From assembly GCA_009712635.1 (NCBI GenBank), contig WASS01000029.1:479276-543275 (forward strand): a DNA stretch of 64,000 bases. Reading direction: 5' to 3'. The notes beneath the pieces were generated by a model. The model was not told the DNA's origin. It searched no databases and saw nothing but the letters and a program-made list of their open reading frames with translations. The translations under genes were made by a program, and so were the position numbers. Each line of letters opens with the position of its first letter. The stretch's first letter is position 1. This DNA is from Hungatella sp. (GTDB lineage Bacteria; Bacillota; Clostridia; Lachnospirales; Lachnospiraceae). Positions 28,982-29,941 of this stretch are shown here, piece after piece.

Positions 28982-29321
28982 GGGGCAGTACTGGTTTCGA
29001 CAGGGGCTATGCAGCTGGTGAAGCTATCCGTATGCGATGCGTTAAATGGCAAACCTAAATATAAACGCTAACAATAATAAATTAGCTTTAGCTGCTTAAT
29101 GCAGCTTGTCGGCCTTAGAGCACTCACACTTTAAGATCCCGGCATCGACTATGTGAGAAACGACGTATGCAAAGCTTTGAGCATACGGGTGTATTATGAA
29201 GCTACTGAAGCAGCCAGGGTGTTAGTTCCCGGACTGTGGAGGGAATGTCAATGAACTAACTATGATAGTAGAAGAACAGGGAATTGGTTTTTGGACACGG
29301 GTTCAAATCCCGTCTGCTCCA
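28982..29321 (+). ncRNA. ssrA: Transfer-messenger RNA (tmRNA)
   Basis: Rescues stalled ribosomes and tags the nascent chain. The 5' GGGGCAG (28982-28988) pairs with CTGCTCC (29314-29320) as acceptor stem, followed by the discriminator A; CCA is not encoded. The 5' half has the typical CTGGTTTCGACAGGGG, and the 3' end has the T-arm GGGTTCAAATCCCG. The tag frame reads ANLNINANNNKLALAA then TAA (about 29051-29101), the ALAA ending being the protease signal. About 340 bases, one-piece form. Its 3' end is repeated at 29853-29879. Confidence 0.97.
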
Positions 29322-29326
29322 CTCAA
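29300..29326 (+). repeat. Putative attachment-site copy 1 (3' end of tmRNA)
   Basis: The 27 bases from GGTTCAAATCCCG through TGCTCCACTCAA at the tmRNA 3' end recur at 29853-29879 with 25 of 27 identities. tmRNA 3' ends are classic integrase targets. Confidence 0.7.
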
Positions 29327-29353
29327 AAAGTCTAGTAAATACTAGGCTTTTTT
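29325..29353 (+). terminator. Terminator of the tmRNA gene
   Basis: AAAAAG-CTAGTA and TACTAG-CTTTTTT arms directly behind the tmRNA 3' end. Confidence 0.85.
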
Positions 29354-29406
29354 AATTGTTGCGTTAGGTTCTGTAATAGTAAAAAAGTTCAAGAAGTAGA
29401 TTCCAC

Positions 29407-29433
29407 AGAGGCGGCTCAACTCCGTCTCTTTTC
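29407..29433 (+). terminator. Hairpin upstream of micropeptide gene 1
   Basis: AGAGGCGG (29407-29414) pairs with CCGTCTCT (29422-29429), then TTTT. It could end readthrough from tmRNA. A related hairpin lies behind micropeptide gene 2. Confidence 0.6.
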
Positions 29434-29475
29434 TTTTCCTGCCTGTAGTGGTATGATGAAGAGGGAGGGGAGAAT

Positions 29476-29571
29476 ATGTTATTAGTAATACTTAATATAA
29501 TTAACATAGTATTATTTATTTCAATTATTGTTGAAGCGATTAAATATTATAAAAAAAATAAAAAGAAGTAG
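29476..29571 (+). CDS. 31-aa membrane micropeptide 1 (type I toxin-like)
   Basis: A 31-codon frame with GGGAGGGGAG before ATG 29476. The peptide has one hydrophobic helix (about residues 2-19, VILNIINIVLFISIIV), then EAIKYYKKNKKK, a strongly basic tail. Size, single membrane helix and Lys-rich end resemble membrane toxins of type I toxin-antitoxin systems, but it matches none I know by sequence. A close paralogue follows at 29638; upstream both share TAGTGGTAT[G/C]AT-like promoter boxes (TGGTATGAT near 29447). The pair lies between two copies of the tmRNA 3' end. Confidence 0.65.
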   Translation: MLLVILNIINIVLFISIIVEAIKYYKKNKKK

Positions 29572-29637
29572 AGACGGTCAACCCATCATTTTTCTTTAAC
29601 AGCTATCAGTGGTATCATGTAAAGGGGAGGCGAGAAT

Positions 29638-29733
29638 ATGCTGGAAATATTAATTGATGTGATTGGTTTGTTAATTATTATATCCATTGTGGTAGAGGCA
29701 GTTAAATATTATAAGAAAACTAAAAAGAAATGA
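29638..29733 (+). CDS. 31-aa membrane micropeptide 2, paralogue of micropeptide 1
   Basis: Same length and layout as its neighbour: a hydrophobic helix (about residues 2-19, ILIDVIGLLIIISIVV) then EAVKYYKKTKKK. The C-terminal 13 residues differ from copy 1 only at two positions. GGGGAGG lies before ATG 29638 and the promoter-like AGTGGTATCATG near 29608. The two genes and their leaders look like a tandem duplication of about 160 bases. No antisense RNA promoter was established by eye, so the toxin-antitoxin reading is only an inference. Confidence 0.65.
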   Translation: MLEILIDVIGLLIIISIVVEAVKYYKKTKKK

Positions 29734-29743
29734 TCAGCCCAGC

Positions 29744-29768
29744 AGAGGCACCCCGGTGTCTCTTTTTT
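29744..29768 (+). terminator. Terminator after micropeptide gene 2
   Basis: AGAGGCACC (29744-29752) against GGTGTCTCT (29755-29763), followed by T6. Confidence 0.8.
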
Positions 29769-29852
29769 GTTATAAAAATCTGACTGATTGGAACGTGAAG
29801 TGAAGCACAAGGAATCCTGGTATATACTGATATTCCCTCTGTTTTTCTTTAC

Positions 29853-29879
29853 GGTTCAACTCCCGCCTGCTCCACTCAA
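29853..29879 (+). repeat. Putative attachment-site copy 2 (fragment of tmRNA 3' end)
   Basis: GGTTCAACTCCCG through TGCTCCACTCAA copies the T-arm and acceptor end of tmRNA (25/27 with 29300-29326) without any of the rest of the gene, as expected for the far att site left by an integrated element. Confidence 0.7.
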
Positions 29880-29941
29880 GGGATTTAGACGATTTTTTGC
29901 TATTTTTCAATAAACGATAATATTAAATAAGTAAAAAAATA

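Follow-up and report, generated by a model that had tools for sequence, protein, structure and literature searches.

Islander, which defines genomic islands integrated in tRNA and tmRNA genes, rejects, by its published description, candidates that lack an integrase open reading frame (ORF) or are shorter than 2 kb (PMC4383910). For the islands specific for ssrA in Dehalococcoides, the published account describes the 3' end of the tmRNA gene as the target and a direct repeat of 20 bp at the far border (PMC3146451). The locus described here lies behind the tmRNA gene in a window of 64,000 nucleotides (the whole stretch of DNA that was analysed) from Hungatella sp. It resembles the islands described for Islander in that a full gene and a displaced 3' fragment in the same orientation mark its ends, and in that a tyrosine integrase, here only a trace, stands beside the restored gene. 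However, the segment holds no integrase ORF and falls below 2 kb, and so would be rejected under the rules given in PMC4383910; a finder with that integrase filter and 2-kb limit necessarily misses this size class. With the Dehalococcoides islands the segment shares a tmRNA 3' target, a repeat at the far border, and varied contents. In contrast, the islands in PMC3146451 that have an integration module encode a CcrB-like serine recombinase and are arranged in tandem, whereas the segment contains the trace of a tyrosine integrase and phage DNA. Our literature search found nothing on tmRNA, integrase, attachment site, and Lachnospiraceae together. The decay of prophages at tmRNA genes is a well-known process, of which this segment is a new example, and it shows how far such a prophage can shrink while staying recognisable.

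The tmRNA gene (ssrA, tag ANNNKLALAA) is on the forward strand, at 28982 to 29322 by ARAGORN and 28982 to 29324 by Rfam (RF00023, 144.5 bits). Its 3' end at 29300 to 29326 (core copy 1) recurs on the same strand at 29853 to 29879 (core copy 2) with 25 of 27 bases identical and two mismatches, as the preliminary description of this DNA had stated. With up to three mismatches allowed, the 27-mer occurred in the 64-kb window only at these two places, and it had no match in 100 dinucleotide shuffles. Copy 2 lacks one G of the T-stem immediately 5' of the core. A degenerate 24-base core pattern (at most one mismatch), searched in 25 genus genomes, was found once in 22 genomes and twice in two, the genome of the window (G000) and G017, and was absent from G019; read backward, the pattern had no match in any of the 25. 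This search found no third copy in G000. A complete tmRNA gene with a displaced 3' fragment in the same orientation is the arrangement by which a tmRNA-integrated prophage or island is recognised, and a prophage in G167, discussed below, is arranged alike. On sequence grounds, copy 1 reads as the attL and copy 2 as the attR of a decayed prophage; the same assignment had been proposed from the repeats themselves, and comparisons of both borders with relatives bear it out.

At the left border, folding and a terminator scan found a hairpin with a T run directly 3' of the tmRNA gene, at 29325 to 29352. Read on the minus strand, the same bases (29327 to 29357) appear to be the fossil end of a tyrosine integrase gene (KKA and a stop codon). 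This assignment comes from a by-eye comparison with G012, where a broken tyrosine integrase gene lies directly behind the tmRNA gene, in the same place as the trace in the window. The antisense strand of the hairpin in G012 forms the end of the pseudogene, FRFHDLRHYGASI..ESMQHDMQHENKKA and a stop codon, which lies within the hairpin; the antisense end used for the comparison was MQHDMQHENKKA and stop. The match of this G012 fragment to PF00589 is marginal, at 27.2 bits against a cut-off of 27.1. By the same comparison, the integrase stop codon in the window sits inside the first hairpin of the segment, and roughly the last four codons (IKKA and stop) are retained, a trace of about 30 bases that rests on comparison with relatives. 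Shorter remnants of the same codons are readable in G004, G020, G021, and G022, among others. The bases at 29358 to 29365 were dropped as a candidate for the integrase end, since locus L059 of G020 shows the end of a micropeptide ORF there. The integrase-end repeats GTGTTGCAT were not readable in the window. Because only these last codons of an integrase gene are left inside, we filed the segment as a relic rather than an island.

Hairpins of this family stand behind the tmRNA gene in the window and in 13 of the 23 relatives read, with other sequence in the remaining 10, as counted by eye and then again by script over the 23 loci. A gap-free pattern of the tmRNA end plus hairpin matched only 4 of 25 genomes, probably because gaps were disallowed. 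The hairpin is common to deep branches of the genus and absent from G018, inside the window's own clade, which implies that it was gained, lost, or exchanged more than once. At the integrase stop it can serve as a terminator for the tmRNA gene, and it probably works as one. The segment suggests a tmRNA terminator of phage origin that outlasted the phage itself.

At the right border, the 34 bp before copy 2 (29819 to 29852, plus strand) are common to the window and G017, with different contents between the two ends, and presumably represent the right end of the lost element; a 26-base pattern of this end had no match in IMG/VR. Behind copy 2, G017 continues with AAGTCGACAAAAGGGATTTGGGCGATTTTTTT and then a dehydrogenase gene. 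AAGTCGACAAAAGGGATTTGGGCGATTTTTTT pairs in a terminator-like manner, with a folding energy not better than that of shuffles. In G018, the space from the tmRNA gene to this dehydrogenase gene is taken up by another element, which encodes a large serine recombinase (PF07508, PF00239) and whose far border runs straight into a near-identical copy of AAGTCGACAAAAGGGATTTGGGCGATTTTTTT; the two G018 contigs concerned probably carry one element. The presence of the same terminator in G017 and at the border of a different element in G018 is as expected of the native tmRNA terminator. The window has it at 29880 to 29910 (plus strand), where about 17 bases of the first arm are missing by comparison with G017; presumably dispensable now, it has decayed. 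Judged against both genomes, host sequence, that is, the native terminator and flank, continues behind the displaced fragment. G003, G015, and G023 are without copy 2 and have different junctions. The serine-recombinase element of G018 (L070 and L034) itself borders on the same tmRNA end, at a CTCCAC core; one side encodes an ArdA-like protein, and the other has genes that look phage-like by eye.

Between these borders lies phage-derived DNA. The bases at 29758 to 29803 (plus strand) match many places in the genus, and 13 of 16 loci examined contained the match. Wherever at least 40 of the 46 bases aligned (11 loci), a phage gene of the same strand began 1–12 bp downstream of it in every case; the two shortest of the 13 matches (L242 and L249) had no packaging gene behind them. 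The gene that follows is a terminase small subunit by profile in seven loci (L055, L062, L063, L239, L241, L243, and L245) and by BLAST to L063 in L244. For the other three (L060, L064, and L240), assignment to the terminase small subunit from position alone was rejected, as the genes matched phrog_2412, a phage family of unknown function; a terminase large subunit comes after it in L060 and L064, and reading by eye shows one in L240 as well. In IMG/VR, the motif in a degenerate 34-base version occurred in 10 contigs, some of them near-duplicates, and all 10 had such an ORF at once behind it. By BLAST, six of these ORFs are like terminase small subunits and four are like the phrog_2412 kind; in two of the six the likeness spans just 61 aa, with an HNH part behind. 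The window has thus kept DNA found in prophages directly upstream of the first packaging gene, and the gene itself is gone.

The preliminary description had listed two micropeptide genes and hairpins with no enclosed integrase gene, and the ORF list and terminator scan agree with it; between the repeats the list contains no ORF of 50 aa or more. Micropeptide 1 (29476 to 29571, plus strand) has 31 aa and is hydrophobic with a Lys-rich tail; its relatives are in G003 and phage contig L251. Micropeptide 2 (29638 to 29733, plus strand), also of 31 aa, has a relative in phage contig L252 with 26 of 31 residues identical (DNA 85% over 144 bp), which stands about 180 bp before a terminase small-subunit gene. 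The 3' part of a third micropeptide ORF, ending in ALGSVIVKKFKK and a stop codon, lies at about 29358 to 29399 on the plus strand; it was found through a BLAST match of 29366–29441 to L059 of G020, where the full ORF has 24 aa, and its frame and first bases were read by eye. The scan placed three terminator-like hairpins on the plus strand of the segment. Besides the one behind the tmRNA gene, these are at 29407 to 29429, of a kind seen by comparison upstream of packaging genes in relatives' prophages, and at 29744 to 29763, after micropeptide 2, both also supported by folding. Promoter-like matches occur on the minus strand of the segment, but do not count as evidence of a type I toxin–antitoxin system, in which a toxic small membrane peptide is paired with an antisense RNA.

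A G023 prophage (L077) and L251, like L252, have relatives of the micropeptides directly ahead of terminase genes. In the genus, 3 of 25 genomes have micropeptides of this kind (G000 twice, G003, and G023). In a survey of 299 evenly drawn genomes of the family, 4 gave a match; one is G000, and the other three matches are weak and fall within longer open frames. Counted by eye, micropeptide 1 differs from its G003 copy at three silent and three changing positions, which says nothing for selection. Membership in a known family was rejected, as Pfam gave no family over its cut-off (DUF5684 and YldA being nearest) and NCBIfam and PHROGs none at all. By their sequence context, the micropeptides are phage genes that are probably idle now. 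The segment directs attention to them as a small family of membrane micropeptides encoded immediately ahead of phage packaging genes. In G020 (L059/L074, G020:C99), the 24-aa relative of the third micropeptide has its own ribosome site and terminator-like sequence and is located among ordinary chromosomal genes, outside a prophage.

The G012 integrase fragment matched in 17 of 250 family genomes, G000 among them, and in 10 of these loci the match lies no more than about 300 bp from a tRNA or tmRNA gene called by ARAGORN. For example, G167, of another genus in the same family, carries a prophage of 41.86 kb at its tmRNA gene. The G167 integrase is intact (357 aa, with PF00589 and PF14659 above cut-off) and ends about 27 bp from the tmRNA gene, and the tmRNA-end core is repeated in 28 exact bases 41,860 bp away, at the prophage's far border. 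An integrase identical to it, beside a tmRNA gene with the same tag, is found in the IMG/VR record IMGVR_UViG_2561511066_000003. A scan of named genomes gave at least 80 integrase loci, and among the 37, mostly the closest, that were given to ARAGORN, two (L160 and L161) have the integrase converging on a tmRNA gene. Together with G167, these loci indicate that integrases of this kind target tmRNA genes, among many tRNA genes.

Like the segment, the G167 prophage has an integrase stop beside the tmRNA gene, the core (28 bp in G167) at both borders, and another flank behind attR; the GTGTTGCAT repeats of this kind of integrase are present in it. Unlike the segment, the prophage is intact and belongs to another genus. 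Relatives with a full island between the same repeats had been named as a check on the reading of the repeats; a full prophage with a tyrosine integrase was found in this other genus, but none of the relatives read has one between exactly the window's two ends. In G000, the fragment has a single match at E ≤ 1e-20, a truncated integrase (207–212 aa) beside a tRNA-Ala-like sequence. This locus (L096, G000:C20, about 64950–65625) also has the same hairpin, and the adjoining degenerate tRNA-Ala(GGC)-like sequence received no ARAGORN call.

The integrase trace, the native terminator, and the phage DNA agree, and they mark the two repeats as attL and attR of a decayed prophage. The segment is very probably the scar of a temperate phage that integrated in the tmRNA 3' end. 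A lost island that kept its small genes, as had been suggested, is in keeping with the border comparisons, the integrase fossil, and the phage DNA inside; sequence comparison establishes the two borders, that the contents come from a phage, and that an intact counterpart exists in another genus. A temperate phage whose tyrosine integrase was of the kind that targets tRNA and tmRNA genes would have entered the tmRNA 3' end, its attP bringing a tmRNA end of about 27 bp that restored the gene, while the host's own 3' end and terminator would have been displaced, becoming attR at the far border. Pointing toward the tmRNA gene, the integrase gene would have had its stop inside a hairpin usable as a tmRNA terminator. 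Later deletions, in an order that we can only infer, would have stripped nearly all of the phage DNA. Besides attR, they would have left the last integrase codons, some 34 bp from the right end of the phage, and a stretch that had preceded the packaging genes and includes two open micropeptide genes, a truncated one, and terminators. Several observations speak against this account: the lack of a full prophage between exactly these ends in the relatives read and of a right-end match in IMG/VR, the shortness of the integrase trace and the marginal Pfam score of the G012 fragment, and the scattered distribution of the hairpin. In addition, the varied contents of the gap fit one insertion followed by deletions only awkwardly, in G020 the relative of the third micropeptide is outside any prophage, and of the 13 matches to 29758–29803 two have no packaging gene behind them and three are followed by phrog_2412. 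The segment shows no sign of present movement, and its excision appears unlikely given the damaged core and ends.

It is possible, though rather unlikely, that the site was occupied by several different phages or islands in turn, with the outer ends left by other elements than the inner phage piece; this would be a variant of the prophage relic. The contents vary among close relatives, G018 has a serine-recombinase element at the same tmRNA gene, and 10 of the 23 relatives have other DNA behind it. However, one phage contig (L252, L266, and L270) joins a relative of micropeptide 2 and a terminase small subunit to an integrase of the right kind, so a single element suffices for the window, and one phage was probably the source of all pieces. 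The integrase at the end of this contig is 48% identical to the G012 fragment and ends in MQHEMQHDKKKAL, and several stretches of the contig align with the remains in G012; it stops at the integrase stop codon, with its own integration site beyond the contig. Two further motif contigs (L253 and L254) have integrases of another kind, 28–31% identical to the G012 fragment. We consider it improbable that the tmRNA flank is a swap site where host recombination shuffles pieces left by successive phages and islands between strains, with the micropeptides kept for a benefit to the cell, for example by excluding related phages.

A miniature element that is still mobile, a 553-bp unit excised and moved by an integrase in trans, had been offered as an alternative to the scar and found no support. 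Its borders are both recognisable, the unit is short, and in G017 other DNA lies within the same pair of ends. However, the segment occurs at full length nowhere else in the 25 genus genomes, where G017 alone has a further copy of the core, the core is damaged, with copy 2 short of a T-stem base, the terminator behind copy 2 is broken, and the GTGTTGCAT repeats cannot be read. G000 has at least 13 Pfam integrase matches, but its one match to this kind of integrase is truncated, and action of a G000 integrase in trans on the segment is unlikely. In the absence of further copies we rejected the miniature element as very improbable. A tmRNA 3' end that was simply duplicated in place and fixed, with no mobile element involved, would fit the want of an enclosed integrase gene, but this explanation was rejected as scarcely credible given the integrase fossil at copy 1, the native terminator at copy 2, the phage DNA between them, and the intact counterpart with phage genes in the G167 prophage.

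The prophage relic does not appear to extend to the genes at 30.0–32.6 kb, which encode a zinc dehydrogenase, a GNAT protein, and two glyoxalase-fold proteins. G003, G015, G017, G018, and G023 all have the dehydrogenase gene and most of those next to it, whatever precedes them, and G004 keeps only the last of these genes. Judging from this distribution, they look like the clade's own flank and not cargo of the insert, and the idea that they arrived later behind the second site is not indicated. In an nrdB tree of 16 genomes, in which three inner forks stay open, G018 falls in one clade with G000, G003, G015, G017, and G023 (support 99/100), so G018 probably once had the scar and lost it, or else acquired a site free of it. 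The gap contents differ among these close relatives, with an alpha/beta hydrolase in G015 and G017 and another antisense stretch in G003 and G023. The hydrolase gene (about 320 aa; L035 1373–2335 in G017, L032 in G015) takes the place of the window's contents from the tmRNA end to the right flank, and its nearest models are proline iminopeptidases, far below their cut-offs.

A short motif also recurred at the 3' ends of the integrase genes. Among 58 loci, 30 passed our filter and 11 of these have TGCAACAC there (L080, L082, L084, L085, L087, L093, L111, L112, L114, L115, and L143), a count in which L082/L111 and L114/L115/L143 look like duplicates. Six of the 11 have it twice, then mostly 12 bp apart. 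The motif had 17 matches in 5,400 bp, against 0.05 per kb across the same loci. It overlaps the last integrase codons in all three reading frames (MQHEMQHE, CNTECNT, and NATRNAT), and looks like an integrase arm site retained at the DNA level.
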